Positions 24,869 through 41,364 of a DNA stretch of 64,000 nucleotides are shown here, in pieces. The DNA is from Exiguobacterium sp. s122. GTDB taxonomy: Bacteria; Bacillota; Bacilli; Exiguobacteriales; Exiguobacteriaceae. Positions within the stretch are counted from its first letter, which is position 1. The number at the start of each line of letters is the position of its first letter. The notes under the pieces were generated by a model. It saw only the letters and a program-made list of their open reading frames with translations. It ran no database searches and was not told the DNA's origin. Both the position numbers and the translations under genes were made by a program. The DNA lies in the NCBI RefSeq assembly GCF_018618475.1, contig NZ_JACSMD010000002.1, positions 124,001-188,000 on the forward strand, in the 5' to 3' direction.

Positions 24869-24905
24869 AAAGAAGTGTCTGCCTGCTATGGCGGACACTT
24901 CTTTT
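24869..24905. terminator. Bidirectional terminator
   Basis: An AAAGAAGTGTC/GACACTTCTTT stem with inner GCC/GGC pairs separates the deacetylase gene from the 3' end of the molybdenum-cofactor operon. Confidence 0.85.
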
Positions 24906-26378: not shown

Positions 26379-26606
26379 TTATCCTCCACTTACCATCGGG
26401 ATGACGGCCACTGTATCCCCGTCATGGACGACGTACGCATCCGTCTCATAGCGTTCATTCACGGCAAACATGAGTCGCTCCGCACCCGTGACCCCTCGCG
26501 CTGTTAAATCAGTTCGTAACACAGCAATCGTGATTGGGGCCGTCATCGTGTACGAGCGCGTTTTGAGTTCCTCGGCCACATGCGCGAAACATAGCACTTC
26601 AATCAT
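26379..26606 (-). CDS. moaD: Molybdopterin synthase small subunit
   Basis: The 75-residue beta-grasp protein ends in GG, the site that is adenylated by MoeB and then thiocarboxylated. The body has VLCFAHVAEEL, LMFAVNERYE and DGDTVAVIPMVSGG. The start at 26606 overlaps the moaE stop (ATGA); a longer frame upstream would run inside moaE. Confidence 0.95.
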   Translation of the reverse strand: MIEVLCFAHVAEELKTRSYTMTAPITIAVLRTDLTARGVTGAERLMFAVNERYETDAYVVHDGDTVAVIPMVSGG

Positions 26607-27055
26607 GTCATCACTCCTTTTGGTCGTCCGGGGCGTTGCTCTTTTTGATCGCCCATCCATTCCGTGCCGTCTGTCCAATGTTCTCGCTTCCAAATCGGGA
26701 CGATTTCTTTGATCCGCTCAATCGCATAACGGTTCGCTTCGTATGCATCAGCGCGATGGGCTGAACTAGTGGCGATGACGACCGCTTCTTCCATGATGTC
26801 GAGACGGCCGATTCGATGGTGTACAGCCGTCAACGTGCCTGGCCACCGCATCGTAATCTCATCGGCGATTTGTTGAAGCATTTTTTCAGCCATCGGCACG
26901 TACGCCTCATACTCGAGTAATTCCGTCTGCTTCTCGCCCGTCATTTCACGGACGGTACCGATAAAGAGCACGACGGCCCCGACGTTTCGATGTCGTACCC
27001 CTTCATAGAGCGCCATCGGATCGAGCGGATGCTCATTTACTTGATACCAGTTCAT
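26603..27055 (-). CDS. moaE: Molybdopterin synthase catalytic subunit
   Basis: The 150-residue protein has MoaE motifs GAVVLFIGTVREMTGEK, LEYEAYVPMAEKML, HRIGRLDIMEEAVVIATSSAHR and PIWKREHW with the catalytic Lys. It forms a tetramer with MoaD and inserts the two sulfurs of molybdopterin. Its 5' end overlaps mobB by 23 bases. Confidence 0.97.
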   Translation of the reverse strand: MNWYQVNEHPLDPMALYEGVRHRNVGAVVLFIGTVREMTGEKQTELLEYEAYVPMAEKMLQQIADEITMRWPGTLTAVHHRIGRLDIMEEAVVIATSSAHRADAYEANRYAIERIKEIVPIWKREHWTDGTEWMGDQKEQRPGRPKGVMT

Positions 27056-27512
27056 GTCTCATCCACCTTTCCATCGCCTCCACTAATTGCGCCTCATCTT
27101 TGACGGCGTCGCCACACGCAATGACGTTCGATAATCCGGTCGGTTCGGCCTGACCCTCTCGAACGAGCACCACTTTTGGATAGTCTTTTTGCTTGTATCC
27201 TTCAATCAACACGACGTCGACGTGTGCTTCGTACCAATTCAAGAGCAACTCGAACGTGTCAACGGCTTGCCACTCAATAAACGTCCCATCTTCCCCAATC
27301 ACGCTCGACACGACAGCTCCAGCGCGCGCATGTCGGTGAGAATCCGTCATCGGCACGTTAAGGGGACTGCCATGTCCGTGATGCTTGATGACCCCGACAC
27401 GTAGACCGCGTCTCGTCCATCGTTCAGTCAACCGGGAAACGAATAAGGTCTTTCCACTGTTTTGATAGCCGACGACTTGCAGGACGGTCACAGATGATCG
27501 ATGACGTGACAT
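27033..27512 (-). CDS. mobB: Molybdopterin-guanine dinucleotide biosynthesis accessory protein
   Basis: The 159-residue GTPase has P-loop GYQNSGKTLFVSRL, GVIKHHGHGS and VLIEGYKQKDYPKVVLVR. It supports MobA during guanylation of the cofactor, which fits the bis-MGD enzyme encoded nearby. It overlaps moeA by 25 bases and moaE by 23. Confidence 0.95.
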   Translation of the reverse strand: MSRHRSSVTVLQVVGYQNSGKTLFVSRLTERWTRRGLRVGVIKHHGHGSPLNVPMTDSHRHARAGAVVSSVIGEDGTFIEWQAVDTFELLLNWYEAHVDVVLIEGYKQKDYPKVVLVREGQAEPTGLSNVIACGDAVKDEAQLVEAMERWMRHELVSSK

Positions 27513-28726
27513 CGGACGACATCTCCTTTCTCAAACCCTCTCGTTCCTCCAGGTAATCGGATCAACGCGTTACACGTCGCGAGCGAAGAGACGATTCCCG
27601 ACTTATCTTTCCCACTCGGATACACAATCGCGCGTCCCGTTTCATCAATCAAAAGTTTGGCCCGGACGAACCGGTCGAACGGATTCGGTTTTTTAAAGTC
27701 GCCACCGAGACGCGCCTCGACAAGCGTCCGTTCTTTTTGCGCATACCCTGTCCGGATGTAAGCACCTACGAACAGTTCGGTTCCAACGAAACAAGCAGAC
27801 GGATTGCCAGATAAGCCGAACAGTAATTGATTCTCGAATTTCGCGACAGTCGTGACCGAGCCAGGACGCATCCCTACTTTATTGAATAAGACGTCAGCTC
27901 CGAGTGCTTCATATACATCAGGTAAATAGTCAAAATCACCGACTGACACCCCGCCTGTCGTAACGACAGCATCACTCGTTCGAAGCGCTTCTTCAATCGC
28001 ACATTTTGTAGCCAAAAACGTATCGGGTAAAACACCGCCATAGATGGCACGTCCCCCGAGCGCTTCAATCTGCGCCAATATCATATATGCATTCGAATTA
28101 TAGATTTGACCGTCCGTTTTGTTTCGTCCCGGTTCAACGAGTTCATCCCCGGTAGCAAAGACGGTGATCCAAGGTTTCGTAAAGACATCGACGGTCGTAT
28201 AGCCAAACGTCGCGAGTAGCGCGATGATGCCAGCATGAATCCGTGTGCCGCTCGTGCAAATCGTTGAACCGATGGCGATATCTTCCCCGCGGTAGGAAAT
28301 ATTCGCTTGGGACGCGGGACGTTTGAACGTGACGTGTGTCTCATTCGCTTGTACGACTTCAAACATGACGACGGCGTCCGCTCCGTCTGGAATTTTGGCA
28401 CCTGTCATGATTCGGATCGCATGCCCACGTCGTAATGGAGGACCGACATGACCGGCGGCTTGAACGGATTGAATCGGTAACGTGATTGGCTGCTCACGGC
28501 TTGCCGCATTCAAATCGCTCGCACAGACAGCGAAGCCATCATAAGGGGATTTATGAAAAGCGGGCACGTCATGGGTGGCAACGAGATCCGTCGCGAGAAT
28601 CCGACCATGTGCTTCAGCCAATGCTACCGTTTCCGTCCGTGCTCGCTTCGTCGCGTCTGTGACGCAGGCAATCGCTTCGTCCACCGCAAGCGGTTTGCGA
28701 AACAACGTTGACAGTTTCTCCATCAT
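27488..28726 (-). CDS. moeA: Molybdopterin molybdenumtransferase
   Basis: The 412-residue enzyme has MoeA motifs: FHKSPYDGFAV at the N-terminus, IMTGAKIPDGADAVVMFE, VFATGDELVEPG, NSNAYMILAQ, TTGGVSVGDFDYLPDVYEALGA (split here: TTGGVSVGDFDY then VLFNKVGMRPG) and GLSGNPSACFVG. It inserts molybdate into adenylylated molybdopterin. It overlaps mobA by ATGA. Confidence 0.97.
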   Translation of the reverse strand: MMEKLSTLFRKPLAVDEAIACVTDATKRARTETVALAEAHGRILATDLVATHDVPAFHKSPYDGFAVCASDLNAASREQPITLPIQSVQAAGHVGPPLRRGHAIRIMTGAKIPDGADAVVMFEVVQANETHVTFKRPASQANISYRGEDIAIGSTICTSGTRIHAGIIALLATFGYTTVDVFTKPWITVFATGDELVEPGRNKTDGQIYNSNAYMILAQIEALGGRAIYGGVLPDTFLATKCAIEEALRTSDAVVTTGGVSVGDFDYLPDVYEALGADVLFNKVGMRPGSVTTVAKFENQLLFGLSGNPSACFVGTELFVGAYIRTGYAQKERTLVEARLGGDFKKPNPFDRFVRAKLLIDETGRAIVYPSGKDKSGIVSSLATCNALIRLPGGTRGFEKGDVVRCHVIDHL

Positions 28727-29271
28727 TCCACTTCCTTTTGCCGTAACTGCTTGAAATCATGTGGCGTGTTTACATTTTTAAACCAAGCTGCTTCTTCAAA
28801 CGAGACGATTGTCGCCTCGAATACATGAGGCATCACGGCACGTTCCCCTCGATTCAATGCGTCTTCGAACGACAATCGCATCGTTCGCGGATACAAACCG
28901 ACTAAAGGATGAATGCGACCGTCCGCATAAGCGATGACCGGTTTGTCTTCTCGGTTGGCCAGTAGCCGTTCATAGACTGTAGAAGACAAGAGCGGTGTGT
29001 CGCATGCTGAGACCGCGTACCAGTCACTGTCGACGTGTCGCATGACGGTCACCATCCCTGCGAGTGGGCCCATTCCTTGAAATTCGACGTCGTCGACTAG
29101 TTGATTCGACACGGGCGACGTTCCTTTTGGGACGACCGTCCATTGTGACGCCGTCACCGGAGCGAGCGTGGCCCGGGCTCGGTCAGCGAACGTACTTCCT
29201 TCATAACGTGCCTGCCATTTCGGTGCACCAAAGCGACGCGAACGTCCGCCCGCTAGGATAATCCCAATCAT
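28723..29271 (-). CDS. mobA: Molybdenum cofactor guanylyltransferase
   Basis: The 182-residue nucleotidyltransferase has N-terminal ILAGGRSRRFGAPKW, the GTP-binding loop, then GMGPLAGMVTVM, SACDTPLL and a C-terminal FKNVNTPHDF. It attaches GMP to Mo-molybdopterin. Its stop overlaps the moeA start and its start overlaps the moaB stop, both by 4 bases. Confidence 0.95.
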   Translation of the reverse strand: MIGIILAGGRSRRFGAPKWQARYEGSTFADRARATLAPVTASQWTVVPKGTSPVSNQLVDDVEFQGMGPLAGMVTVMRHVDSDWYAVSACDTPLLSSTVYERLLANREDKPVIAYADGRIHPLVGLYPRTMRLSFEDALNRGERAVMPHVFEATIVSFEEAAWFKNVNTPHDFKQLRQKEVE

Positions 29272-29771
29272 CGTGTCGCTTCCCAGACGATATGCGACAG
29301 TTCGGGTAAGATCAGTCGCTTCATCGCCAAGTCGACAGCACCGCGTGACCCAGGCATCGCAAAGATAATCGTGTCTCCTATTCGACCGGCGAGTGCCCGT
29401 GACAACATGGCGGCCGGTCCGATATCTTCCGTGAAACTGATCAAGCGGAACAATTCACCGAACCCGACCATTTCACGGTCGAGGAGCGGACGAATCGTCT
29501 CAATCGTGACGTCTCGCTTCGTGATGCCGGTCCCACCCGTCGTCAAGATGACATCCATTTTATCGGCCACCATACGTCGTACGGCGGCCTCGATTTCTTT
29601 TTGGTCATCTTTTGTAATTTCGCGATACGTCACCGTATGCTCGCCTGCTTTCAACAACTGACAAATGTGTTCGCCTGAGACGTCCGTATCGAGCGTCCGT
29701 GTGTCCGAAATCGTTAAAATGGCGGCGCGAATTTGTTTCGTCTCGTGTTGGACATGATTGTGTACGTGCAT
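29268..29771 (-). CDS. moaB: Molybdenum cofactor biosynthesis protein B (molybdopterin adenylyltransferase)
   Basis: The 167-residue MoaB/MogA family protein has AAILTISDTRTLDTDVSG, VILTTGGTGITKRDVTIE, and GSRGAVDLAMKRLILPELSHI. It adenylates molybdopterin before MoeA acts. The start at 29771 follows GGAGG, whose bases lie within an upstream in-frame ATG that is therefore not the likely start. It has no C-terminal extension. Confidence 0.95.
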   Translation of the reverse strand: MHVHNHVQHETKQIRAAILTISDTRTLDTDVSGEHICQLLKAGEHTVTYREITKDDQKEIEAAVRRMVADKMDVILTTGGTGITKRDVTIETIRPLLDREMVGFGELFRLISFTEDIGPAAMLSRALAGRIGDTIIFAMPGSRGAVDLAMKRLILPELSHIVWEATR

Positions 29772-29775
29772 CTCG

Positions 29776-30783
29776 TTAACCTCCAATGTAACTCATCTCA
29801 ATTCGTTTTCGCTTCCGGCTTCCGCTATGGGACCGTTCTTCTGAATAGCGATCATCCCTTGCATCCCATACCATTTTCAGCGTCATATGAATCAGATCGT
29901 CACTTGCCCCATTACGAAGTAGCTCCCGAATGTCGGTCCCTTCCTCTGCAAAGAGACACGTATACCATTTCCCGTCACTCGATAATCGGCCTCGCGTACA
30001 CGTTCCACAGAACGGGCGGCTGACCGATGAAATGAACCCGACCTGTGCGCCATCTGTATACCGATAACGTGTCGCCACCTCACCGAACGTTTCGGGTTCA
30101 AGTGGTTGAAGCACGCCATTATCGTGGTGTAACACGTTGAGAATCGCCTCCGATGACACGACATGTTCGACGTTCCATTCGTTTGACGTGCCTACGTCCA
30201 TAAACTCGATGTAGCGAAGTGTAATATGCCTTTCTTTAAAGTACGCAGCCATCGGTGCAACTTCATGATCGTTCCACCCTTTTCGCACGACCATGTTCAC
30301 TTTAACCTCGAGACCAAGTCGTTTCGCTTCGTCAATCCCGCGGAGAACCGCTTCCGGCGACGTACCGCGACCGTTCATCATACCAAACGTCTCTTCCGAT
30401 AAGGCGTCTAGGCTGACGTTGACCCGATCGAGTCCCGCTTCCTTCAGCGACTTGGCCATCCGCTCTAAATACATCCCGTTTGTTGTTAAACCAATCGTCT
30501 CAATCGTCGTGACGGCACGCAACCGTTGAATGAGGTCTTCTAGATTGGGACGGAGAAGCGGTTCACCTCCGGTTAGGCGAATTTTTTTAACACCATGAGG
30601 GGCAACGATACGGACGAACCGCTCAATTTCGTCAAACGATAACAGCTCGTCTCGTTTTAAAAATTGATGATGTCGAAACGCTTCTTCAGGCATACAGTAG
30701 CGACATCGAAAATTACATTTATCAATGACGGAAATACGTAAATCTTCTAACGGGCGCCGCCGTTGATCAATCCATGGTGTCAT
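29776..30783 (-). CDS. moaA: GTP 3',8-cyclase (radical SAM)
   Basis: The 335-residue radical-SAM enzyme has N-terminal CNFRCRYC for the SAM cluster, LTGGEPLLRP, and a C-terminal second cluster from CGTC and a Cys 14 residues on (WYTCLF). It ends in Gly-Gly, as MoaA proteins do. It starts cofactor synthesis from GTP. The start at 30783 is 9 bases from AAAGG; an upstream ATG abuts the ribosome site. There is only a 54-base gap to the upstream narK with no terminator, so both probably share a transcript. Confidence 0.97.
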   Translation of the reverse strand: MTPWIDQRRRPLEDLRISVIDKCNFRCRYCMPEEAFRHHQFLKRDELLSFDEIERFVRIVAPHGVKKIRLTGGEPLLRPNLEDLIQRLRAVTTIETIGLTTNGMYLERMAKSLKEAGLDRVNVSLDALSEETFGMMNGRGTSPEAVLRGIDEAKRLGLEVKVNMVVRKGWNDHEVAPMAAYFKERHITLRYIEFMDVGTSNEWNVEHVVSSEAILNVLHHDNGVLQPLEPETFGEVATRYRYTDGAQVGFISSVSRPFCGTCTRGRLSSDGKWYTCLFAEEGTDIRELLRNGASDDLIHMTLKMVWDARDDRYSEERSHSGSRKRKRIEMSYIGG

Positions 30784-30837
30784 ATGTTTCATCCTTTCTT
30801 TGCCGACAGAAGCGATGAGAAAGCCGCTTCCGAGTTG

Positions 30838-32154
30838 TCAGCGAATCGGCTTTTCGGCCCCTTTTCGCAAATAATAGTAAATCGTGATACCAATCGAGAT
30901 GGCGTAAAGACCGAGCATGACGACGAGCGCACCATTGAATGAACCGACCAGTTCAAGCGACCAGCCGAACATTTTTGGAATGAAGAACGCGCCGTATGCG
31001 GCGAACGCGGCCGAGAATCCTACGACCGCCGGCGTTTTGGTCGCGACGAACACGTGAGGAATCATGGCGAACGTCGCGCCAGAATTGAGACCTGTTGCGA
31101 TAAATAGGATGACAAACGAGATAAAGAACATCGTCAAGTTATCGTTCATAATGGCGAAGATGACACTCACCGTTCCAAGCGCCATAACGCCAAAGACAAT
31201 CAATGTCACTTTCGCCGCCCCGACTTTGTCACTAATCCAGCCACCAAATGGACGAGACGATGCGCCGAGAAGCGCACCGAGAAATGCGAGCGCGAGCAAA
31301 TCCGAGTCAGGAAACTTCAATTTCAAAATCATCGGAAACGCTGCGGCATATCCGATAAACGAACCGAACGCAGCAGTGTAAAGGAGCGTTTGAATCCAAA
31401 AATGTTTTTCTTTGAATACACTCGCCTGCTCTCGAATCGATTGGCGGGCAGTCGGTAAATTGTCCATGAAGACGTACGCACAAATCGCGAGCACAATCGT
31501 CGGAATGACCCAAAGCAGTGCGGCGTTTTGTAACCAAATCTTTTCACCTGTCTCCGTCAGAAGGGCACTCCCTCCAATCGCCCCAAAGATACCGGTCGTG
31601 ATGACGAGCGGTGTGATCAATTGAACGAGTGAGACGCCTAAGTTCCCGACACCCCCGTTAATCCCGAGAGCCGTCCCTTTCTTCGCCTTCGGATAAAAGG
31701 CCCCGATGTTGGCGTTTGATGATGAAAAGTTTCCGCCACCGAGTCCACAAAGCGCAGCCAAAATCATAAAGACCCAGTATGGAGTATTCACGTTTTGGAC
31801 GGCATAGGCGATGCCTAGAAGTGGGAGCAAGAGGACGCCCGTTGAGAACACCGTCCAGTTCCGTCCACCAAAGATACTATTGGCGAACGTATAGAAGAAC
31901 CGCAACGACGCGCCGACGAGTCCTGGTAACGCTGCTAATGTGAACAGTTGACCTTGCGTGAAACTAAACCCGATTGAATTTAATTGGACGGCAGCGACCG
32001 ACCACATTTGCCAGACGATAAAAGCGAGCGTTAGTGCAGGCACCGAGACGAGCAAATTTCGATTCGCCACTTGTTTGCCTTTGCCTTCCCAAAACTGCGC
32101 ATCTTCTGGTTTCCAGTCGCTTAGCGCGTGAGATTGTTTTTGTAGTTGTTGCAT
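30838..32154 (-). CDS. narK: Nitrate/nitrite transporter of the NarK family (MFS)
   Basis: The 438-residue protein has 12 predicted helices. It carries the two nitrate signature motifs GLGGGNFSSSNANIGAFYPK and GINGGVGNLGVSLVQL, and FFYTFANSIFGGRNW supplies the first substrate Arg (LRFFYTF). It imports nitrate or exchanges it for nitrite. The start at 32154 follows GAGGAGG. A predicted FNR-dependent promoter lies 45-90 bases upstream. It heads the cofactor operon that runs to 24904. Confidence 0.95.
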   Translation of the reverse strand: MQQLQKQSHALSDWKPEDAQFWEGKGKQVANRNLLVSVPALTLAFIVWQMWSVAAVQLNSIGFSFTQGQLFTLAALPGLVGASLRFFYTFANSIFGGRNWTVFSTGVLLLPLLGIAYAVQNVNTPYWVFMILAALCGLGGGNFSSSNANIGAFYPKAKKGTALGINGGVGNLGVSLVQLITPLVITTGIFGAIGGSALLTETGEKIWLQNAALLWVIPTIVLAICAYVFMDNLPTARQSIREQASVFKEKHFWIQTLLYTAAFGSFIGYAAAFPMILKLKFPDSDLLALAFLGALLGASSRPFGGWISDKVGAAKVTLIVFGVMALGTVSVIFAIMNDNLTMFFISFVILFIATGLNSGATFAMIPHVFVATKTPAVVGFSAAFAAYGAFFIPKMFGWSLELVGSFNGALVVMLGLYAISIGITIYYYLRKGAEKPIR

Positions 32155-32197
32155 ATTCGGTTCCTCCTCTAATCGGATCAATTCGTACCCTATCCTC

Positions 32198-32243
32198 ATC
32201 CTATCGAGTCCACCATTAAAAAAGTGTGTCATCTTTCACACTT
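32198..32243 (-). promoter_or_regulatory. Predicted FNR-dependent promoter of narK-moa
   Basis: A palindrome with 7-bp arms AAGTGTG/CACACTT around 8 bases (32222-32243) has the core TGTGT-N6-TCACA, one mismatch from the FNR consensus. TAGGAT at 32198-32203 is the -10, with the box centre 29.5 bp from its edge. Confidence 0.7.
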
Positions 32244-32308: not shown

Positions 32309-32354
32309 TTCTGTGACTTTAAACACAGAAAATCCCTCCCCGCTTCCTTACGAT
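32309..32354 (+). promoter_or_regulatory. Predicted FNR-dependent promoter of the 171-residue gene
   Basis: TTCTGTG/CACAGAA arms around 8 bases (32309-32330) have the core TGTGA-N6-ACACA. TACGAT at 32349-32354 is the -10, again 29.5 bp from the centre. Confidence 0.65.
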
Positions 32355-32373: not shown

Positions 32374-32889
32374 ATGATGTCCCATATTGTTCGTATTACT
32401 TGCGCTCCAGAGACTCAATTGGCGCTACAACCTTATTTCTTTAGCCAAGATGGTGTGCACGTCTTTCGTGTCTTCGGCGTCTCAATCGCCGAAGCTTCGT
32501 TTAATGAGGACGGGATTGAAATCACGTTTCCCTTCGAGAGCCCGATGGAAGAGCTTGAGGCGCTTCACCGTTTGCTCGTTCGAATGGACACCCATCATGA
32601 AATTACTATTGATGATACTCAGGCCGTCATCGGCTACTTAGGAGACGGATCGACCGTCACCGTATATCGTCAATTTAAACGTTGGGTCGACTTCTTATCG
32701 GCAGCGCGCGTGCGCTCGATGGAAGGCGTCGTCGTTGAGGTACGGACGAACGGCGTGAAGCTGACTGAAGGTGTGCTCCGGTCTTATGAATTGGTGGAAG
32801 ATGGCGATTTCTATGTATCGGCCTGTACAATCGAGGCCGATGGGCTAGAACATTTCGAAGGAGAATTGACGCTCACCGCGGTCATGTAA
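32374..32889 (+). CDS. Unrecognised protein divergent from narK
   Basis: The 171-residue soluble protein has no motif I recognise. It looks like a mix of beta strands and helices, acidic, with no cysteine cluster (Cys10 and another near 155) and no signal peptide. The N-terminal half is ISAEASFNEDGIEITF-like strand-rich sequence and the middle has QFKRWVDFLSAARVRSMEG. AGGAGG lies 4 bases before this ATG and 7 before a second ATG at 32377. Its predicted FNR promoter and its place in the nitrate island imply an anaerobic role. It runs convergent with fnr. Confidence 0.6.
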   Translation: MMSHIVRITCAPETQLALQPYFFSQDGVHVFRVFGVSIAEASFNEDGIEITFPFESPMEELEALHRLLVRMDTHHEITIDDTQAVIGYLGDGSTVTVYRQFKRWVDFLSAARVRSMEGVVVEVRTNGVKLTEGVLRSYELVEDGDFYVSACTIEADGLEHFEGELTLTAVM

Positions 32890-33582
32890 TCAATCGATGA
32901 CGCAAACCGAGATCGGGCAATCCTCACAATGATTGAGTTGCTTCAATTGTTCAAGGTCATGAATGATGATTTGACGCGACGGTAAGGAGATGACACCTTC
33001 TTGAGCCAGCTCGTTCAACATACGGTTCACACGCTCACGTGATGTGCCGCAATAGTTGGCGAGCTCTTGATTTTTTAATTTCAAATCAATCAAGATCCCC
33101 TCTTCGACGCGGACGCCATAGCTGTTCGCCATCCGAATGAGCGTGGAGTAAAGGGCACCTTTCTTTCCGTTTAACACGAGATCACGGAATTTCGTATGCT
33201 GTTTTCGCATATGCTCATTGATCATGACCATGAATTCACGAACGAACTCGGGATTGGATGACAAAATCATCTTTTCAATTCGTTCGATTTTCACTGCATA
33301 GATTTCACTGTCTTCTAACGCTTTCGCGTTGAATAAATACTTCGGTTCAATTGCGAATAGCGTCAATTCGCCACAGCAAGCTTCTGCACTCAAACAGCGT
33401 AGCGTCAACTCTTTCCCCGTCTCGGTCAACTTCGAGATTTGAATGAGCCCACGTTTGACGATATAAAATTCGGAAGCCTCTTCTTGTTCACGGAACAAGA
33501 AGCCCCCCTTTGGAACATGAATGATGCGATGGGCCAACTTTTTCGTTTCCTCGAGTACCATCGTTTTGCTAGAGTGCGTCAT
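32890..33582 (-). CDS. fnr: Anaerobic regulator FNR (Bacillus-type, C-terminal Fe-S cluster)
   Basis: The 230-residue Crp/Fnr protein has an N-terminal cyclic-nucleotide-like barrel (GGFLFREQEEASEFYIVKRG is its core), a dimer helix, and a helix-turn-helix with CGTSRERVNRMLNELA. It ends HCEDCPISVCVID: Cys219, Cys222 and Cys227 match the C-terminal cluster spacing of Bacillus subtilis Fnr (CxxCx4C). Asp134 in KFRDLVL could be the fourth ligand by analogy with Asp141. It would activate transcription without oxygen. The start at 33582 gives the family length; a longer frame lacks support. Confidence 0.92.
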   Translation of the reverse strand: MTHSSKTMVLEETKKLAHRIIHVPKGGFLFREQEEASEFYIVKRGLIQISKLTETGKELTLRCLSAEACCGELTLFAIEPKYLFNAKALEDSEIYAVKIERIEKMILSSNPEFVREFMVMINEHMRKQHTKFRDLVLNGKKGALYSTLIRMANSYGVRVEEGILIDLKLKNQELANYCGTSRERVNRMLNELAQEGVISLPSRQIIIHDLEQLKQLNHCEDCPISVCVID

Positions 33583-33643
33583 TTCCACCAACCTTCCTAA
33601 ACACCTACACTTCATCGAAACTTGCCTTCATTCTAAACAGAAA

Positions 33644-33689: not shown

Positions 33690-33893
33690 CTATTCTTTCA
33701 CACCGTATTCTATTTTCTTCCAATAGCGATATAACAATATAATCAGACCTACGTTAGCAAGGGCGATTCCCATGTAAAGCCGCATGGAGGCATGATCATA
33801 TACCATATAGCTTTCAATCGTATACTGCAATAAAATCATGTTTGTCGCCAATAAAATGACCAATCCGAGTAAACTCCAACCGTTACGCCCCAT
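33690..33893 (-). CDS. Small membrane protein at the end of the nitrate reductase operon
   Basis: The 67-residue protein has two membrane helices (WSLLGLVILLATNMILLQY and LYMGIALANVGLIILLY) and a basic C-terminus. The ATG overlaps the Rieske gene by 11 bases, showing coupling. I do not recognise a family. Its constant partner would be the Rieske protein; a role in anchoring or assembly is a guess. The reading start at 33893 is supported by the overlap and by the absence of a good site for the longer frame. Confidence 0.7.
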   Translation of the reverse strand: MGRNGWSLLGLVILLATNMILLQYTIESYMVYDHASMRLYMGIALANVGLIILLYRYWKKIEYGVKE

Positions 33894-34389
33894 GATGAAT
33901 CTCTCTTCCGACGGCGAAAATTTTTCCGTTCTCAATCTCAAGGAGAACTTTTGGCAGTTCACGTTGTGGCGGGCCGGCTTGAGGTTGTCCATCCACGCTG
34001 AAATAGCCGCGGTGGCAAGGACACAAGAGAACGTCCTCTTCTTCTACATAAAAGACAGGACACTGTAAATGGGTGCATTTATTGTTATACGCCACAAACT
34101 CCCCATTCTTTAAATGGACGAGTAATGAGGATTCGTTACCCGGATATTCAAACTCAAGCGATTTTCCTCGTTCAATCGCGTCGACGGTCGTAATGAATTG
34201 GCGATCCGCTCTCGGTTCACTGCGAACGAATGCCGCGATATTGAAGGGCACGGTGGCTAGACCAAGCGCAATCCCGGCCCCGAATGTCGACTTGATGAAC
34301 GCGCGACGATTCAATTTCACATCGTCCGCGCGACTCAAGTTGTCGACGAGAGAAGATAGTCGCTCCCGATCTTTTGATTCGTTTGACAT
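33883..34389 (-). CDS. Rieske iron-sulfur protein with Tat signal
   Basis: The 168-residue protein has a twin-arginine signal NRRAFIKSTFGAG (from about residue 27) with a hydrophobic stretch that may stay as an anchor. The Rieske centre is CTHLQC and CPCHRG, giving two Cys and two His ligands. It would sit on the outer face of the membrane and carry electrons to or from a quinol-oxidising partner. It belongs to the molybdoenzyme operon and not to a bc complex gene set, since no cytochrome c1 or QcrBC-type genes adjoin it. Confidence 0.92.
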   Translation of the reverse strand: MSNESKDRERLSSLVDNLSRADDVKLNRRAFIKSTFGAGIALGLATVPFNIAAFVRSEPRADRQFITTVDAIERGKSLEFEYPGNESSLLVHLKNGEFVAYNNKCTHLQCPVFYVEEEDVLLCPCHRGYFSVDGQPQAGPPQRELPKVLLEIENGKIFAVGREIHHGA

Positions 34390-34409
34390 ATGTCATCTTC
34401 CTTTCTCTA

Positions 34410-34952
34410 TCAGTCGGAATAGACGCCAAAGAATTCAGGGACGTAATTCCATTTGTCGTCTTGTGACGGTTTTTTCCCTTCAATCATGTTCATTTGAACA
34501 CGTTGGCGACGGAGTTGCATCATCTCGTCATGGTCGATAAATCGAATCGCATCGGACGGACAGACTGAGGCACACATCGGGGCAATATCGTGTTTTGACC
34601 GGTCATAACACATGTCACACTTGTACATTTTATTCTTCTCAAAATCGAACTTCGGAATCCCGAATGGACAAGCAAACGTACAGTTACGGCAGCCAATACA
34701 TTTTTCTTCTGATGCCGATAACACGACACCTTCTGGCGTGATTTGAATCGCATTGGCCGGACAGACTTGCGCACAAGCCGGATTTTTACACTGCATGCAA
34801 ATCATCGGAAACGTTTGGCGACTTTCAGAGAAATCAATATAGTCGACATAGTTGCGCTCGAGTCCATCGTGATCGCCACACTCGCGACAAGCCGCCTGAC
34901 AGGCACGACAACCGATACAACGTTCAAATTCTAAATACATGACTTTATTCAT
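34410..34952 (-). CDS. 4Fe-4S ferredoxin-type electron transfer subunit
   Basis: The 180-residue protein has four clustered Cys motifs typical of DmsB/NrfC/HycB proteins with four 4Fe-4S centres: CIGCRACQAACREC, CMQCKNPACAQVCP, CIGCRNCTFACPFG and CDMCYDRSK then CASVCPSDA. There is no signal peptide, so it is cytoplasmic. It overlaps the catalytic subunit gene by ATGA and would link that subunit to the membrane cytochrome. Confidence 0.93.
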   Translation of the reverse strand: MNKVMYLEFERCIGCRACQAACRECGDHDGLERNYVDYIDFSESRQTFPMICMQCKNPACAQVCPANAIQITPEGVVLSASEEKCIGCRNCTFACPFGIPKFDFEKNKMYKCDMCYDRSKHDIAPMCASVCPSDAIRFIDHDEMMQLRRQRVQMNMIEGKKPSQDDKWNYVPEFFGVYSD

Positions 34953-37195
34953 GTCGTGTGGACCTCCTCACCCATGACGTGACAGCTCGTCGCAATCGCA
35001 TGGTCCGCCACAAACGGTACGCTCGAACCGAGCGGGACCGTCAACGGGTTCATGTGCAACGGTGTGTTCGCTGGTAATTTCTTCAGTTGAACGGCGCATA
35101 CTTTGAATTCTGGCATGCGGGACATCGGGTCCAAACATGGATTGGTCAATTGGTTGACGGCAAGTTCTTTTCCCCAGTGATACGGGACAAAGACGGTGTC
35201 TTTCCGAATCGCCTTCGTCAAACGTGCCTCGACGACCATCGCGCCTCTTCGTGTCCGTAATTCGACTTTGTCACCGGTTTGCAGGTTATAGCTCGAGGCG
35301 AGTTCCGGATGAATCTCGACGAACGGTAACTTAGACATTGTACTCAAGAAGTCGATTCGCCGTGTCTGATTGCCCGAGAGGTAATGGAAGACGACGCGAC
35401 CGGTCGTGAGCGTGACCGGGTATTCTTCGTTCGCATATTCACCGGCCGGGCGATACGTGACGACAGGCAGATTCGCTTTCCCGTTCGCTGTCCCGAACCG
35501 TTCTTTAAACATCGTCGGTGTGCCAGGATGGTCCTCAGACGGACATGGCCAAAACACGCCATACTCGTTGTCGATGCGTTCCCACGTAATCCCGGAATAG
35601 TCGGCCGCGCCACCTTTCGTGGCGAGACGGAACTCTTCCCAAATGTCGCGTGCCGTCTTATACGGGAAGTATTGTCCGCGTCCCATTCGTTCAGCGATTC
35701 GCTGCATGATTTCCCAGTCCGGGAGAGAATCACCGAGCGGTTCGCGCACTTTCCGGATTCGAACGACACGTCCCTCTAGGTTCGTCGTCGTCCCTTCGTC
35801 TTCTGCCCACGAACAAGCCGGCAAGACCACGTCGGCGAACTCGCAAGATTCAGACATGAAGAAGTCACTAACGACGAAGAAGTCGAGTTTGTTGAAGCTG
35901 TCCCAAACGTACGGCAGGTTCGGCGCTGAGACGGCGGGATTCGAACACATGAGATGCATTGCCCGAATCGTTCCTGCTTGAATCTCATCGAACATCTCAA
36001 ACGCTGAGACACCTGGTTTTGGCATCTCGGATGGATCAATGCCCCAGACACCGCTCACATATTCGACAGCTTTCGGGTCTGTGAGTTTTCGGTAACCAGG
36101 CAATAAGTCCGCTTTTTGTCCGTGTTCCCGCCCACCTTGTCCGTTCCCTTGACCCGTCATCGTCGCGACGCCAGAAGCAAACTTGCCGACCATTCCCCGC
36201 AGGAGCGCCATCGACGTGTAGAGCGAGACGTTGTCGACGCCTTTTGATTGTTGCTCGACACCACGGGCGAACAACATGACCGACCGCGGGCTCTTTCCGT
36301 AAATGTGACCTGCTTTTTCAAGTTTTTCGATGGTAATTCCGGTCACGTCACTCGTCCGTTCGAGCGTCCACTCGCGTACGGATGCCTGTAACGCTTCGTA
36401 GTTATCACAACGCTCATCCACGTACGCTTGATCGACGTAATCATGTTCGATGAGGAAGTGGAGTAATCCCATCGCCAGCGCTGCGTCCGTCCCTGGTTTT
36501 AAGTCGAGGTGGACGTCAGCCACGCGTGCCATCGGAATCTCACGTGGGTCGGCGACGATGATTTTCGCACCTTTGTCTTTCGCCTTCCAAATATGTTGCG
36601 TCGTCGTCGGATGACACTCGGCGATGTTTGAACCGGCGACAAAGAACGTATCAACATGCTCGAACTCCGTCCACGGTAGGGTCGCCCCACGGTCAATGCC
36701 AAGTGTTTTTAAGAAACCACCGGCAGCCGACGACATACAGAAGCGACCGTTATAATCAATGAATCGTGTGCCGAGTGCGACGCGCGCATATTTTCCGACG
36801 AGATAACATTTCTCGTTCGTCATGGAGACGCCACCGAACACGGACACCGCATCTTTCCCGTGCTCGCGCTGAATCCGTTTGAAGTTCGCTTCAATCACGT
36901 CGAGCGCTTCCTCCCACGTTGCTTTCTCAAACTTCCCGTTCCGTTTAATGAGCGGTGTCAAGATCCGGTCCGGATGCTCGATCGTTTGATAGGCCGTGAC
37001 CCCTTTCGGACAGAGCTTGCCTTTATTGACCGGGAAATCATAACGTGGCTCGACGCCTTTGACAGCCCCGCTCTTCTCGTCGACGCGAATGTGCATGCCA
37101 CACTGCATCCCACAATAACAACAGTGGGTCGTAATTAGTTTTTCGCCTGGTTTGACCAAGTTTTGTACGTCAGGTGAAGTTAAAAACTCACTCAT
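34949..37195 (-). CDS. Molybdopterin oxidoreductase catalytic subunit, NapA/NasC-type (probable nitrate reductase)
   Basis: The 748-residue bis-MGD enzyme has an N-terminal 4Fe-4S site (CCYCGMQC at 25-32, then GKLCPKG) and Mo ligand Cys in GRFCMSSAAG near residue 149, as in NapA/NasC/FdhF-like enzymes and unlike NarG (Asp). Cofactor motifs are MTGQGNGQGGREHG and LTTGRVVFHYLSGNQTRR. No Tat signal is present, so it acts in the cytosol. Context (narK, moa, FNR sites) points to nitrate as substrate, but a related oxyanion or formate cannot be excluded. The start at 37195 follows GGAGGGG. Confidence 0.88.
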   Translation of the reverse strand: MSEFLTSPDVQNLVKPGEKLITTHCCYCGMQCGMHIRVDEKSGAVKGVEPRYDFPVNKGKLCPKGVTAYQTIEHPDRILTPLIKRNGKFEKATWEEALDVIEANFKRIQREHGKDAVSVFGGVSMTNEKCYLVGKYARVALGTRFIDYNGRFCMSSAAGGFLKTLGIDRGATLPWTEFEHVDTFFVAGSNIAECHPTTTQHIWKAKDKGAKIIVADPREIPMARVADVHLDLKPGTDAALAMGLLHFLIEHDYVDQAYVDERCDNYEALQASVREWTLERTSDVTGITIEKLEKAGHIYGKSPRSVMLFARGVEQQSKGVDNVSLYTSMALLRGMVGKFASGVATMTGQGNGQGGREHGQKADLLPGYRKLTDPKAVEYVSGVWGIDPSEMPKPGVSAFEMFDEIQAGTIRAMHLMCSNPAVSAPNLPYVWDSFNKLDFFVVSDFFMSESCEFADVVLPACSWAEDEGTTTNLEGRVVRIRKVREPLGDSLPDWEIMQRIAERMGRGQYFPYKTARDIWEEFRLATKGGAADYSGITWERIDNEYGVFWPCPSEDHPGTPTMFKERFGTANGKANLPVVTYRPAGEYANEEYPVTLTTGRVVFHYLSGNQTRRIDFLSTMSKLPFVEIHPELASSYNLQTGDKVELRTRRGAMVVEARLTKAIRKDTVFVPYHWGKELAVNQLTNPCLDPMSRMPEFKVCAVQLKKLPANTPLHMNPLTVPLGSSVPFVADHAIATSCHVMGEEVHTT

Positions 37196-37487
37196 CTTTT
37201 TCCCCTCCATAGAACGTCTCCGCTCTTCGTTTTGAAAATCCACTGACATGGTAGCCGTTGATGGTTTGTAGCGGATAATGCATCCCGTCACTCTCGGACC
37301 GTCCCAGCGCCGAATCGAGCCGAGCCCGACGCCGACACGCATGACATAAGTCTTGAACGGTATGCGCCGCATCGACTGGCACGAGTTGAATCGATCCTTC
37401 AAGCAACTGCTTCACTTGTTCAATTTCTTCACGTGTCCCGGTCGGTTCCCCGCATTTAACGCACAGGTGTTTCATCTTTTGTTTCAT
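37188..37487 (-). CDS. Small CxxC/CxxCRR-domain protein, paralogue of the cytochrome b C-terminus
   Basis: The 99-residue protein has two CxxC pairs (CVKCG and CHACRR) separated by about 40 residues, likely a zinc ribbon or metal site. It ends in a GYHVSGF-type tail. It aligns by eye over its whole length with the C-terminal domain of the next upstream gene (CSGCG ... CQPCRR ... GMSMPGF), so the two arose by duplication. The start at 37487 is tentative; GTG at 37499 or ATG at 37475 are possible. It overlaps both neighbouring genes. Confidence 0.7.
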   Translation of the reverse strand: MKQKMKHLCVKCGEPTGTREEIEQVKQLLEGSIQLVPVDAAHTVQDLCHACRRRARLDSALGRSESDGMHYPLQTINGYHVSGFSKRRAETFYGGEKDE

Positions 37488-38598
37488 CTTTTGTTTCACC
37501 TTTCGTCTGTTTCGGCCGCCCGAACCCTGGCATCGACATGCCGGTATTCGTGTCGACTGGATGTGTCGGTAACTGCCCGTTCATCATGTTCAACTGCATT
37601 TTCACACGCATCTTCCGGCGACACGGTTGACAGTAATCGGATAACTGGGTACCGTCATTCAACCCGAGCTGTAGCGTATGGGCTTGAAGAATCGCCTGCA
37701 CGTCCTCGACTTGATTGTCCGTTGCATAGCGTGTGCCACAACCGGAACAGACACGCGTCTCGTCAGCCTCGACTTCCCGATAGTTCATCGGGACGCTCGC
37801 CGCCATCGGTCGGACCGGCAAGTGGAACAGTTTGCCGAACGGGAAGTAGCATAAAAAGATGATGACGGTCAGCTGGTGGAATAGAGCGAGCTCGTGATGG
37901 ATGAATCCGCCGAAAAATACGTAGGACACAGTCAATAAGAGCCCAGAGACGGTGACGATGAGCAACATGAGGAGCGGTAAAATATCAAATTCAAAGCGTT
38001 GCGTCACTTTCACATCTTGATCGTAAATCCGACGATATAACGCCATCAGTACACCGACGAGCAACATGAGTGCCGTAATATTCAATCCGTTATAAACGAT
38101 TTCGGCAAACAGTCCATGGGCCGCCATCTTGATCGTCGGGATATTGAAGACGATGATTTGATACGTTTCGACATCAATCAAGTCAAACCGCATCCATTGG
38201 AACGTCAAGCCGAACGTGATCGCGAATGAGCCGAGGCATCCCCAGGCAATCAACATATGTTGACTCCATCGATACCACCCACGTTCCCAGATGAATTTCT
38301 GTAAGACGATATTATGGACGGTCGTCGTTGCAACGGCTTTACTCGCCCGCTTCTTTTCAGCTTTCATTTGTTTCAAACTACGCTTCAACACTTGTGAGGT
38401 GGCCGGACGCGCAAAGAACAACGTCAATCGCACGACCATGCCGATCATGCAAATAACAGCGGCGATGTAATAGCCGAACAGCGCCATATCGACGTGTTCG
38501 AATCGACCTGAAGCAATCCAAGTCGAGAGCACTAAGCTCGTGAATCCTACGAACGACCACTTCGCAGCAGTCGAATAAAAATAACGGTCGGACATCAT
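37456..38598 (-). CDS. NarI-like membrane cytochrome b with C-terminal CxxC domain
   Basis: The 380-residue protein has about six helices in residues 10-275, with candidate heme-ligand histidines in SQHMLIAWG, MAAHGLF, IHHELALFHQL and GKLFHLPVRP. The last motif resembles the NarI/DsrM membrane anchors. Residues about 285-365 form a soluble domain with CSGCG and CQPCRR pairs. The tail repeats KDET. First gene of the operon behind an FNR-type promoter, it probably oxidises menaquinol for the cytoplasmic molybdoenzyme. Confidence 0.8.
   Translation of the reverse strand: MMSDRYFYSTAAKWSFVGFTSLVLSTWIASGRFEHVDMALFGYYIAAVICMIGMVVRLTLFFARPATSQVLKRSLKQMKAEKKRASKAVATTTVHNIVLQKFIWERGWYRWSQHMLIAWGCLGSFAITFGLTFQWMRFDLIDVETYQIIVFNIPTIKMAAHGLFAEIVYNGLNITALMLLVGVLMALYRRIYDQDVKVTQRFEFDILPLLMLLIVTVSGLLLTVSYVFFGGFIHHELALFHQLTVIIFLCYFPFGKLFHLPVRPMAASVPMNYREVEADETRVCSGCGTRYATDNQVEDVQAILQAHTLQLGLNDGTQLSDYCQPCRRKMRVKMQLNMMNGQLPTHPVDTNTGMSMPGFGRPKQTKGETKDETKDETPVR
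37473..37508. repeat. 12-bp tandem repeat in the overlap of two genes
   Basis: CATCTTTTGTTT occurs twice in perfect tandem, followed by a third, degenerate unit. In one minus-strand frame it encodes KDET repeats at the C-terminus of the cytochrome; in the other it gives MKQK repeats at the start of the small CxxC protein. Confidence 0.85.
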
Positions 38599-38635: not shown

Positions 38636-38686
38636 ATCATAAAGATGACGTAAACACTTAACTGTTACTTTTTTCACAGATAAGTG
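38636..38686 (-). promoter_or_regulatory. Predicted FNR-dependent promoter of the nitrate reductase operon
   Basis: TGTTA-N6-TCACA (38663-38678) is one mismatch from the FNR consensus. It sits in a larger palindrome at 38655-38686 whose 11-bp arms agree at 10 positions. TATGAT at 38636-38641 is the -10, with the centre 29.5 bp away. Confidence 0.75.
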
Positions 38687-38728: not shown

Positions 38729-39100
38729 ATGAAAACGTCCATTAAAATCTTTCTATTCCTGACGATCACGTGTATGCTTCTTGTTTTTTCGATTGGTTTC
38801 GTCTTTGCGAATCGAGCGACGACGGAACCCGATGTTGTCGGTTATGTCATTGAAATCAACTCGGACGATCAAACGGCACTCATCATTCAAGGCATTGATG
38901 CGACAGAGGCGAAACTTCCTGCTGACGTCTTATTCGAACGTAGTGCACCAGAAGATGTGAGTTGGTATAAGTTTCAAGTGACATCGACATTTAAGAAAAT
39001 CTCGGTCGGTGACCACGTCGCGTTGTGGAAAAAGACCGGCCCGAGTATTTTAAACACACCGAACCGCGCCTATGTGAAAGCAGTCAACGTGCTTCGCTAA
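38729..39100 (+). CDS. DUF3221-like exported protein
   Basis: The 123-residue protein has an N-terminal hydrophobic signal or anchor (residues 5-25). A small beta-rich domain follows with VVGYVIEINSDDQTALIIQGID and FKKISVGDHVALWKKTGPSILNTPNRA, the pattern of DUF3221 proteins of bacilli. Function unknown. AAGGAGG precedes the ATG. Its stop overlaps the modB stop region by 4 bases tail to tail. Confidence 0.7.
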   Translation: MKTSIKIFLFLTITCMLLVFSIGFVFANRATTEPDVVGYVIEINSDDQTALIIQGIDATEAKLPADVLFERSAPEDVSWYKFQVTSTFKKISVGDHVALWKKTGPSILNTPNRAYVKAVNVLR

Positions 39101-39738
39101 TCGCGACGCTTGCCATAGCGCTCGCTTAGCCAGAGCACGAGAAACGCCAATCCGATCAACCAGCCGCTCCAAATGAGCGCTTGCGTCATGTTTCCATTCA
39201 ACGTCGCCATGTAGATGGCCGTTGCGAGCGTCATCGTCTCCCCGGGGATGTTTCCTGCAATCATCATCGTAATGCCAAACTCACCGATAGACCGGGCGAA
39301 TCCGAGCACGAACCCGCTCGTCAACGCCGGTAATAACAACGGAATCGTGACATATGTGAACAATTGGCGTTCGGTTCCACCAAGCACGCGTCCGGCTTCA
39401 TACCATTCCGCATCCAGTTGGTTCAAACCGAGTCGAATCGTTTGATAGATGAGAGGGAACGCCGCCAAGGCGGACGCGATGACGTTGGCTTGCTTTGTGA
39501 ACAAGAGATTGACCGGTAAAAACGAACCGAGTCCGTTATTGCCTAGTGCGATCAAGGCGTATAGACCGATAACAGTCGGCGGTAAGATAAGCGGCAATAA
39601 AAACAACGTGTCCACGAGGCGTTTTCCTTTGAACTGTCGGTGATGCATGAAGTAAGCGGCAGCGAATGCCACGACGAATGCGTTTCCCGTCGCGATCAAA
39701 CCGACTTCGAACGTGAGTTGGATAGGCGAGAGCATCAT
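39097..39738 (-). CDS. modB: Molybdate ABC transporter permease
   Basis: The 213-residue protein has five or six helices and the permease EAA loop EWYEAGRVLGGTERQLFTYV with ARSIGEFGITMMIAG, typical of ModB. It imports molybdate with ModA. No ATPase gene follows, so the modC partner must be elsewhere or a shared ATPase is used. Its start overlaps modA by ATGA. Confidence 0.92.
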   Translation of the reverse strand: MMLSPIQLTFEVGLIATGNAFVVAFAAAYFMHHRQFKGKRLVDTLFLLPLILPPTVIGLYALIALGNNGLGSFLPVNLLFTKQANVIASALAAFPLIYQTIRLGLNQLDAEWYEAGRVLGGTERQLFTYVTIPLLLPALTSGFVLGFARSIGEFGITMMIAGNIPGETMTLATAIYMATLNGNMTQALIWSGWLIGLAFLVLWLSERYGKRRD

Positions 39739-40472
39739 TTCATAAACCCTTTTTCTAGAAAGTATCGCTGAATGTCTTCGTCGAACAGACGGTCATATAC
39801 GTGACGTACATTGTCACGGTTTGCGAAACGGACGGCGGGATACAGAATGGGGCCTGTCGCTGCGGACGGGATCGGCTGAATCGCTTCTACTTTCTCCGTA
39901 AGTTCTGTTTTATAGACGAAACCCGCACTCGCGTCTCCTTGCTCGATGAGGGTCAAGACTTGTCTGACGTTTTGCGCGTAAATCAATCGCGGTTCAGTTT
40001 GTTTCCACATTTCGATTGAATCGAGTGCGCTTTTCGCATATCGGCCTGCTGGCACATTGACGGGATCACCGATGACGATGCGTGGGCACGTCTCTAACTC
40101 CAGCCAGTCTACGGCGCAACGCTTGCCTTTAGGCGTCACGAGCCACAACTCATTTCTCAAAAAAGGTCGTCGCTCCAGTACAGGGGGGGCTAAGGCATCG
40201 ACATCTGCCTCGCTCGCTGCCAAGAAAAGATCTGCAGGCGACCCGTGATTGATTTGTGCACGCAACGCACCGCTCCCGTTCGTGACGACACGAATATCCA
40301 CTTGATCTAGTTCGGCTTCCAATTGCTTCTCCACTTGTTCAAGCGCCGGCCCTAAACTAGCTGCCGCTAAAATCGTCACCGTCTCGTTTTCTTCATCCGA
40401 GGAGCTCGACCATACTTGACTCAACAACAAGGCGACCGTCACGCCAACTACTACAGCACTCATGCGTTTCAT
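39735..40472 (-). CDS. modA: Molybdate-binding protein
   Basis: The 245-residue periplasmic-type binding protein has VTILAAASLGPALEQVEKQ, VVTNGSGALRAQINHGSPADLFLAA, VIGDPVNVPAGRYAK and GDASAGFVYKTEL, the ModA pattern. The N-terminal hydrophobic segment lacks a clear lipobox Cys (VWSSSSDE), so it may be secreted or held by an uncleaved signal. An FNR-like promoter element lies upstream, fitting coordinated supply of molybdenum with nitrate reductase. Confidence 0.92.
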   Translation of the reverse strand: MKRMSAVVVGVTVALLLSQVWSSSSDEENETVTILAAASLGPALEQVEKQLEAELDQVDIRVVTNGSGALRAQINHGSPADLFLAASEADVDALAPPVLERRPFLRNELWLVTPKGKRCAVDWLELETCPRIVIGDPVNVPAGRYAKSALDSIEMWKQTEPRLIYAQNVRQVLTLIEQGDASAGFVYKTELTEKVEAIQPIPSAATGPILYPAVRFANRDNVRHVYDRLFDEDIQRYFLEKGFMK

Positions 40473-40582: not shown

Positions 40583-41290
40583 TCAAACGACCGTACGTGC
40601 CCGTGGGAATAAAATATTGTTTTCGAGATGAATGTGCTCAAACGTATCGGCTTCAAGTGCCTCAAGACGTTGATAGACGAGCCGATACGTCCCACATGCA
40701 CCTTCAGGCGGAGTAAAATCATTCGTTACGTGACGAAGTGTTTTCAACAAATCGCCGGCTGCCGCATGCTCAGATTCGAGCGACGCCAAAATCGTTTCGA
40801 GCTCACGCGTCGTCTCTTCCGTCGGTTCCGCCTCATGACGAAGTAACGTTGGAAAATCTTTCGTTTCCTCTTTTACGATATGTTGTTCGAGCTCTAGCTT
40901 TAACTGGTTGAACAGCTGATGTACTTGCCCGAGATGTGGATGATGTTGCCCATGGACTCGAAACACTTTCGTTACGTAAGGCGTGAGTTGCGGAAGTTCG
41001 TCCGTCAAAAACTGATGGTGCTTATGAATGATATGTTCAACCAATTCGGATGACGAGGCGGCATCCCAATCGATACTCGTTTCATTCATCTCTTGTTTCC
41101 GTTTATATAAGGCGTTCACTTCTTCCAAAATCTCCTCAGTCGAACGTTTGGATTTGTCCGTCGCTTCCGCGAGTGGTCGATTCCCTCCGCAACAAAAGTC
41201 GATTCGATTCCGCTTGAAAATATCGGCTGCTTGCGGACACTGTTTCACGATATCCGATACGTGTGTGTCGCTCGTAAACGTGTAGATCAT
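40583..41290 (-). CDS. scdA: Iron-sulfur cluster repair di-iron protein (Ric/ScdA/YtfE)
   Basis: The 235-residue protein has an N-terminal DUF542 domain with NRIDFCCGGNRPLAEA and a hemerythrin-like domain with iron ligands in HIIHKHHQFL, HGQHHPHL, LEQHIVKEE, ESEHAAAGDLL and FEHIHLENNILFPRA. It rebuilds Fe-S clusters damaged by nitric oxide or oxidants, which suits nitrate respiration. The start at 41290 follows AGGAGGG. An FNR-type site lies 59-74 bases upstream. Confidence 0.95.
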   Translation of the reverse strand: MIYTFTSDTHVSDIVKQCPQAADIFKRNRIDFCCGGNRPLAEATDKSKRSTEEILEEVNALYKRKQEMNETSIDWDAASSSELVEHIIHKHHQFLTDELPQLTPYVTKVFRVHGQHHPHLGQVHQLFNQLKLELEQHIVKEETKDFPTLLRHEAEPTEETTRELETILASLESEHAAAGDLLKTLRHVTNDFTPPEGACGTYRLVYQRLEALEADTFEHIHLENNILFPRARTVV

Positions 41291-41321
41291 GTTGTACCCT
41301 CCTATTCGTTTTGACACGTTC

Positions 41322-41364
41322 AGCGTAGCAAGCGGCCTCGTTAGAAAAAGTGAAATACGTCACA
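41322..41364 (-). promoter_or_regulatory. Predicted FNR-dependent promoter of ric/scdA
   Basis: AGTGA-N6-TCACA (41349-41364) is one mismatch from the FNR consensus. TACGCT at 41322-41327 is a weak -10 at the standard 29.5 bp distance. Confidence 0.65.

Follow-up and report, generated by a model that had tools for sequence, protein, structure and literature searches.

A conserved Exiguobacterium operon combining a NasC-like molybdoenzyme, a NarI-like cytochrome b and a Tat-type Rieske protein: a probable quinol:nitrate oxidoreductase

In the respiratory nitrate reductase NarGHI of bacteria, the subunits NarG and NarH face the cytoplasm (PMC3475470), and in the archaeal nitrate reductases that have a Rieske protein and a cytochrome b the active site lies outside (PMC2483277 and PMC4683180). 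NasC is treated as purely assimilatory in PMC10100899, and in Bacillus bataviensis a nasC gene has an "HCP" gene and a Rieske gene as neighbours (PMC3475470). For Exiguobacterium, a nasC cluster was already reported in 2020, with its role given as unknown (PMC7374977), and PMC13233415 records NasA in 4 of 18 strains and nitrite-to-ammonia enzymes in none. Beyond PMC7374977, PMC13233415, and possibly PMC3475470, no description of the whole complex was found in the open-access literature. Here, we analyzed an operon at positions 33690-38598, on the minus strand, of a 64,000-nt stretch of the Exiguobacterium sp. s122 genome (the window, to which all coordinates refer). Judged from the sequence, this operon probably encodes a membrane-bound quinol:nitrate oxidoreductase that would serve anaerobic respiration under Fnr control and not assimilation, and nitrate is its likely substrate.

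Organization of the operon and comparison with described systems

The operon is transcribed in the order of cytochrome b (37456-38598; 380 amino acids, aa), a small CxxC protein (37188-37499; up to 103 aa), the catalytic subunit (34949-37210), the 4Fe-4S subunit (34410-34952), the Rieske [2Fe-2S] protein (33883-34389), and a small two-helix membrane protein (33690-33893; 67 aa, assigned by hydropathy). Several gene borders are overlapping start and stop codons, for example the ATGA in which the ATG of the 4Fe-4S gene overlaps the stop codon of the catalytic gene. The cytochrome b, which has a weak Pfam match and a profile match, consists of a NarI-like membrane core and a C-terminal CxxC...CxxC domain. 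The catalytic subunit is a NasC-like protein of the molybdenum (Mo)-bis-molybdopterin guanine dinucleotide type, assigned by family models, tree, and motif; it starts at 37210 or, as the ribosome-binding site makes more probable, at 37195 (748 aa), has a cysteine motif at its N-terminus and the Mo-ligand Cys158 (numbered from 37210), and is predicted to be cytoplasmic, with no twin-arginine translocation (Tat) signal. The 4Fe-4S subunit has no signal peptide either. The Rieske protein contains the N-terminal Tat motif NRRAFIK, a single hydrophobic stretch (residues 37-55) as an anchor, and the ligand motifs CTHLQC and CPCH; TatC is encoded in the genome (profile search). The parts named in a preliminary description of this DNA, including the fusion of the cytochrome to a CxxC domain, were borne out here, and the small CxxC protein and the two-helix protein are added to it. 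The closest named relatives are Exiguobacterium profundum, E. aurantiacum, E. chiriqhucha, and Exiguobacterium sp. TNDT2.

The gene order and the ligand residues are conserved. Of 398 Bacilli genomes sampled, 38 matched a profile of the cytochrome (threshold, E 1e-10 or better): 7 from the genus and 31 from outside it. Of the latter, 21 were opened, giving 22 places, and 10 were not. A phylum-wide sample of 398 genomes gave 2 matches, including the genome of the window itself, so that within this sampling the system is rare beyond Bacilli. Among 72,556 plasmid records, the window cytochrome matched 4, all from Deinococcus, of which 3 were opened; the cytochrome was absent from phage records and IMG/VR. 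The order cytochrome b-catalytic-4Fe-4S-Rieske is kept in all 24 other loci (the 22 places in 21 Bacilli genomes and 2 Deinococcus plasmids), and the third opened Deinococcus record has the same order by annotation. In alignments of the window with these 24 loci (25 rows), the cytochrome residues H114, H241, H259, C284, C287, C323, and C326 and the Rieske ligands are invariant in every row, and the 4Fe-4S subunit has 17 invariant cysteines, 16 of which fit four clusters. The twin arginine is present in 23 of the 25 Rieske rows, the remaining two (L056 and L064) being shortened or broken as read, and no credible Tat signal was found in the catalytic or 4Fe-4S rows, two of the catalytic rows being fragments; twin-arginine motifs flagged in catalytic row L068 and 4Fe-4S row L066 were rejected as pattern matches inside over-long open reading frame starts. 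The retention of the four-gene order and the ligands across loci indicates that the operon is more than chance. A lineage of its own in Gram-positive bacteria, found also in Deinococcus, is likewise supported by sequence.

The two small proteins are less widespread. The small CxxC protein, found in Exiguobacterium loci only, resembles the C-terminal domain of the cytochrome (26% identity, E 2e-5; E 1.7e-6 to 8e-8 against the corresponding genes from two relatives). The two-helix protein was recognized by BLAST in 9 of the 24 other loci; in Deinococcus its place is occupied by a DUF6755 protein, and the DUF6755 model, which matches the Deinococcus protein, has no match to the two-helix protein of the window. 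Existing annotation labels the Deinococcus cytochromes MFS transporters.

The operon shares with NarGHI the cytoplasmic Mo and Fe-S subunits (here predicted from the absence of Tat signals), a membrane cytochrome b whose core aligns with NarI, and Fnr and NarK nearby. It differs from NarGHI in that (i) the catalytic subunit is NasC-type, with a Cys ligand and 753 aa as read from 37210, and is not a NarG; (ii) the cytochrome does not have the four heme-ligand histidines of NarI, the place of H66 being lost; (iii) an outside Rieske protein and a CxxC domain are added; and (iv) no NarJ-like gene was recognized in the operon. The topology had been described as unlike that of NarGHI, which holds for the Rieske protein, the NasC-type subunit, and the CxxC domain but not for the side of the reductase, since NarG and NarH are cytoplasmic too (PMC3475470). 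The haloarchaeal pNar (NarB Rieske protein, NarC cytochrome b, and NarGH) likewise combines a nitrate reductase with Rieske and cytochrome b subunits in one operon; however, its enzyme is NarG-type and lies outside and its cytochrome has 486 aa, according to PMC2483277 and PMC4683180, whereas the operon has a NasC-type enzyme, predicted to be inside, and a NarI-like cytochrome, and kinship with the haloarchaeal enzymes is not supported. The arsenite oxidase AioAB shares the association of a Mo enzyme with a Tat-type Rieske subunit, but AioA is periplasmic and has no Cys ligand (PMC10100899). At the B. bataviensis nasC locus (BABA_16882, 16877, and 16872), nasC adjoins genes for an Fe-S protein and a Rieske protein; this locus, compared by description only and described as an alternative assimilatory system in PMC3475470, is possibly the same module.

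Catalytic subunit, membrane subunits and Fnr-like sites

The catalytic subunit, which is the only PF00384 protein in the genome, scored 60.8 bits with the narG model (cut-off 1084) and is thus not of NarG type. The NapA models gave 280.9 bits (cut-off 930.55) and 285 bits (cut-off 904), and the missing Tat signal also argues against NapA. A tree, which had been proposed in the preliminary description together with the gene-order comparison given above, was built from 67 catalytic rows (62 distinct, five Nas rows being duplicates) and rooted at the midpoint, leaving out L063 and L064, whose catalytic genes are broken as read, and L109 and L118, which are under 600 aa. The 24 cluster rows form one branch (support 95/94) that adjoins 39 Nas rows (99/96), and two formate dehydrogenase (FDH) rows, NapA, and one Hymenobacter nitrate reductase are outside. 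All 24 cluster rows have the Mo-site Cys-Met and NGQGGREHG, as in the Bacilli Nas rows, whereas the two FDH rows have Cys-His or Cys-Gln and NNVQG. This Nas-like active-site motif speaks for nitrate as the substrate and against formate. The assimilatory NasC proteins of Gram-positive bacteria are thus the closest relatives of the catalytic subunit, with an identical active-site motif, and differ from it in their separate branch and in their loci, which have no membrane genes where opened: of the 8 Nas loci opened in Bacilli, 6 have NirB, 7 have a NarK-type gene, and none has the cytochrome or Rieske gene of the operon.

Alignment of the cytochrome profile to NarI by hhalign gave 95.3% (E 2.4e-8). 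In this profile comparison, H241 and H259 align with NarI H187 and H205, transmembrane helix 3 (TM3) lying outside the alignment, and H114 is paired with NarI H56 by place only. In NarI, H56 and H205 hold the inner heme, and H66 and H187 hold the outer heme. Positive charges strongly predominate in the loop that precedes TM3 (12 K+R and 2 D+E); by the positive-inside rule, H114 and H259 would be on the inner side of the membrane, as would the CxxC domain, and H241 on the outer side. A bis-His heme close to the 4Fe-4S subunit is therefore likely, and an outer heme is uncertain. The cytochrome profile had no match up to E 1 among the PDB sequences, and an AlphaFold model of the cytochrome made from five near-identical sequences had a mean predicted local distance difference test score of 40.7 and was not used.

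The Rieske protein is the surprising part of the operon. It has the disulfide cysteines of the bc type, and its nearest solved relatives are the Rieske proteins of bc and b6f complexes and AioB. Four places in the genome have a Rieske domain, one of them a 171-aa frame, and a Rieske frame of similar size (152-184 aa) is present in all 19 same-genus genomes and is probably QcrA. One genome (G002) is the only one of the 19 without a TatC match, and it nevertheless has the QcrA-sized Rieske frame.

Fnr-like palindromes were sought with the pattern TGTGA-N6-TCACA, allowing at most one mismatch. One, with one mismatch, is located at 38663-38678 (plus strand), 65-80 bases before the cytochrome start, and 24 of 29 loci have a site near the cytochrome start, compared with 4.5% of random windows drawn from the same loci; the 29 loci are not independent and include several close relatives, five of them Exiguobacterium. 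Two further palindromes (plus strand, one mismatch each) are located at 32225-32240, before narK (likely start, 32154), and at 32312-32327, between narK and the divergent gene at 32374. The number of sites in the window is uninformative (4, compared with 2.31 expected, and reached by 21 of 100 shuffles), so that the argument rests on their place, which was noticed after the scan, and on the relatives. An alternative pattern, TTGAT-N4-ATCAA with up to two mismatches, gave scattered matches only. No Fnr-like site was found near the operon start in L022, L063, and L072. The Fnr-type regulator itself (Crp/Fnr family, by family match) is encoded at 32890-33615 on the minus strand, and its C-terminal CEDCPISVC has the same ligand spacing as Bacillus subtilis Fnr.

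Proposed electron path and alternative explanations

We propose that menaquinol would be oxidized at the outer side of the membrane by the cytochrome b/Rieske pair, that heme b of the cytochrome would conduct the electrons inward, and that the four-cluster subunit would relay them to the cytoplasmic NasC-like Mo centre, where nitrate would be reduced to nitrite. NarK would carry nitrate and nitrite across the membrane, and Fnr would turn the operon on without oxygen. The simplest chain would thus run from quinol through Rieske/cytochrome b, 4Fe-4S, and Mo to nitrate. If quinol is oxidized outside and protons are consumed inside, energy would be conserved as a redox loop, as in NarGHI. The distinct quinol-to-nitrate chain suggested earlier for this Gram-positive bacterium is likely, in view of the conserved operon, the NarI-like cytochrome, the likely substrate, and the separate lineage; the Fnr-like sites, the lack of any other PF00384 protein and of PF01077 and PF02335 proteins in the genome, the co-occurrence of MoaA with the cytochrome, and the NarK-type genes near many loci also speak for it. 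What we infer are its activity and assembly as a complex, the hemes it contains, the flow of electrons from quinol and its direction, the role of the Rieske protein, and the energy coupling. A hybrid nitrate reductase is a tentative, rather unlikely extension of this proposal: the bc-type Rieske cluster at the outer face might substitute for the missing distal heme ligand set of NarI, so that quinol would be oxidized by Rieske protein and cytochrome b together and the electrons would cross to a NasC-type enzyme inside.

Several observations weigh against the proposed quinol:nitrate oxidoreductase. The membrane part of the cytochrome has only three invariant histidines; ten residues beyond H114, at the place of NarI H66, 19 of the 25 rows have Ser and 6 have Ala, and no second invariant histidine was found in these rows as a heme partner of H241, so that a second bis-His heme, and hence an easy transmembrane path for electrons, cannot be counted on. 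Nor is there a clear job for an outside Rieske protein on an enzyme with its active site inside. Both Deinococcus loci have no Fnr-like site near the operon start, and 5 of the 24 other loci have no NarK, Fnr, or molybdenum cofactor gene within the opened stretch. Finally, the second-best family model of the catalytic subunit is the FDH alpha subunit (TIGR01591; 648.2 bits, cut-off 666.25), and two other cluster members, L058 and L022, pass this cut-off with 684.3 and 676.1 bits.

The main alternative keeps the nitrate reductase and changes the entry of electrons, which would come from outside: a bc-type complex would reduce a cytochrome c, this would feed the Rieske protein, and cytochrome b would deliver the electrons to the Mo centre, the nitrate reductase complex itself not oxidizing quinol. 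This route would account for the retention of the Rieske protein, and both the bc-type cysteines of the outside Rieske protein and the second, putative QcrA-sized Rieske protein throughout the genus are consistent with it. We nevertheless regard it as fairly unlikely, because the operon has no cytochrome c gene and the NarI-like core suggests quinol oxidation.

It is also unlikely that the enzyme is an assimilatory nitrate reductase NasC to which the membrane genes merely supply reductant. NasC (NF047855) is the best NCBIfam match of the catalytic subunit, and the assimilatory label has been used for Exiguobacterium in PMC7374977 and for the B. bataviensis nasC with its Rieske gene in PMC3475470. 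However, the score of 875 bits is below the NasC cut-off of 1100, which a control NasC of Paenibacillus passes with 1165 bits; the catalytic subunit is on a branch of its own; Fnr-like sites are present; and the 8 opened Nas loci mostly have NirB and never the cytochrome or Rieske gene. In addition, no PF01077 nitrite/sulfite reductase (NirB-type) to complete assimilation was found in the genome by a search whose control matched 11 of 14 named genomes. PF02335 (NrfA) was also not found in the genome. The absence of NirB and NrfA would make nitrite the end product, unless another nitrite reductase is present, NirK and NirS not having been searched for. In one genome (G049), NarG-like, NarH-like, and NarI genes and a NasC-NirB pair are close together on one contig and the cluster is on another; the cluster therefore need not replace either.

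An FDH, or an enzyme for another oxyanion such as chlorate or selenate, is very unlikely: the TIGR01591 scores given above favour it, but the Cys-Met and REHG residues are those of Nas and not of the two FDH rows, and the tree position and the NarK-type gene in the opened stretches of 17 of the 24 other loci also speak against it. An arsenic-linked enzyme resembling arsenite oxidase, an idea raised by PMC7374977 and favoured by the likeness of the Rieske protein to AioB, is highly improbable, as the arsenite oxidase large-subunit model gave 134 bits (cut-off 359), AioA has no amino-acid Mo ligand (PMC10100899) and all 24 cluster rows have the Cys, and nasC expression was unresponsive to arsenic in PMC7374977.

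Neighbouring genes and implications

The operon is followed downstream by fnr, narK, and molybdenum cofactor genes; on its upstream side are modB, modA, and a gene for iron-sulfur repair. The NarK/NarU-type nitrate/nitrite transporter (30838-32232, minus strand; likely start at 32154, from relatives of 438 aa) scored 407 bits with the NarU model (cut-off 836) and 287.6 with the NarK subfamily model (cut-off 311.7). The molybdenum cofactor genes ThiF/MoeB, moaC, MoaD-like, moaE, mobB, moeA, mobA, moaB, and moaA occupy 24904-30792 (minus strand); ThiF, MoaC, ThiS, MoaE, MobB, and MoaA are family matches, and moeA, mobA, and moaB were named from sequence. The molybdate transport genes modB (named from sequence) and modA (family match) at 39097-40472 and the RIC/ScdA iron-sulfur repair protein (40583-41317; family match), which has an Fnr-like site at 41349-41364, are also on the minus strand and are associated with the operon, outside the complex. 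No modC was recognized adjoining modA and modB, the rest of the genome not having been searched for it. In the opened stretches of the 24 other loci, a NarK-type gene is present in 17, Fnr in 9, and a molybdenum cofactor gene in 12, two of which (L069 and L070) rest on weak MoaA-like matches of 24-27%. Among the 19 same-genus genomes, the 7 that have MoaA are exactly those that have the cytochrome, and these 7 may be one clade.

Two genes on the plus strand diverge from this cluster. The gene at 32374-32889, divergent from narK, has no Pfam match above cut-off; BLAST relatives of its product occur near the cluster in 10 of the 24 opened loci, and it is possibly an accessory or assembly factor. 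The gene at 38729-39100, divergent from the cytochrome operon, encodes a small protein with a likely signal peptide and a weak DUF3221 match below cut-off.

Further genes were observed at single loci. A YwiC gene, which in B. subtilis is found next to narGHJI, lies near one locus. Another locus, with a catalytic gene broken as read, has nearby genes for a histidine kinase, a LuxR-type regulator, and a GAF protein that resemble NreB, NreC, and NreA. In L021 (2853-5554; genome G047), narK is followed by an AAA ATPase gene that looks MoxR-like and by a gene of 581 aa that has no Pfam match. Genome G501 has two copies of the cluster (L063 and L064) with the catalytic gene broken as read in both, by decay or by sequencing error. 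L020 (NZ_NIJF01000074.1), a contig of 4975 bases labelled Bacillus sp. P14.5, has a cluster 94% identical to that of Exiguobacterium and is possibly a contaminating contig.

Current models would name the catalytic subunit FDH alpha or plain molybdopterin oxidoreductase. If true, the hybrid would add to Nar and Nap another architecture for respiring nitrate, one that converges with the haloarchaeal pNar but has its active site on the other membrane side. The quinol:nitrate oxidoreductase proposed here would, if real, show how an assimilatory-type enzyme can be wired to a membrane cytochrome, and it raises the question of what role a Rieske cluster outside the membrane plays when the active site is inside. 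Some Bacilli and Deinococcus would then respire nitrate through a complex that surveys of narG and napA miss.

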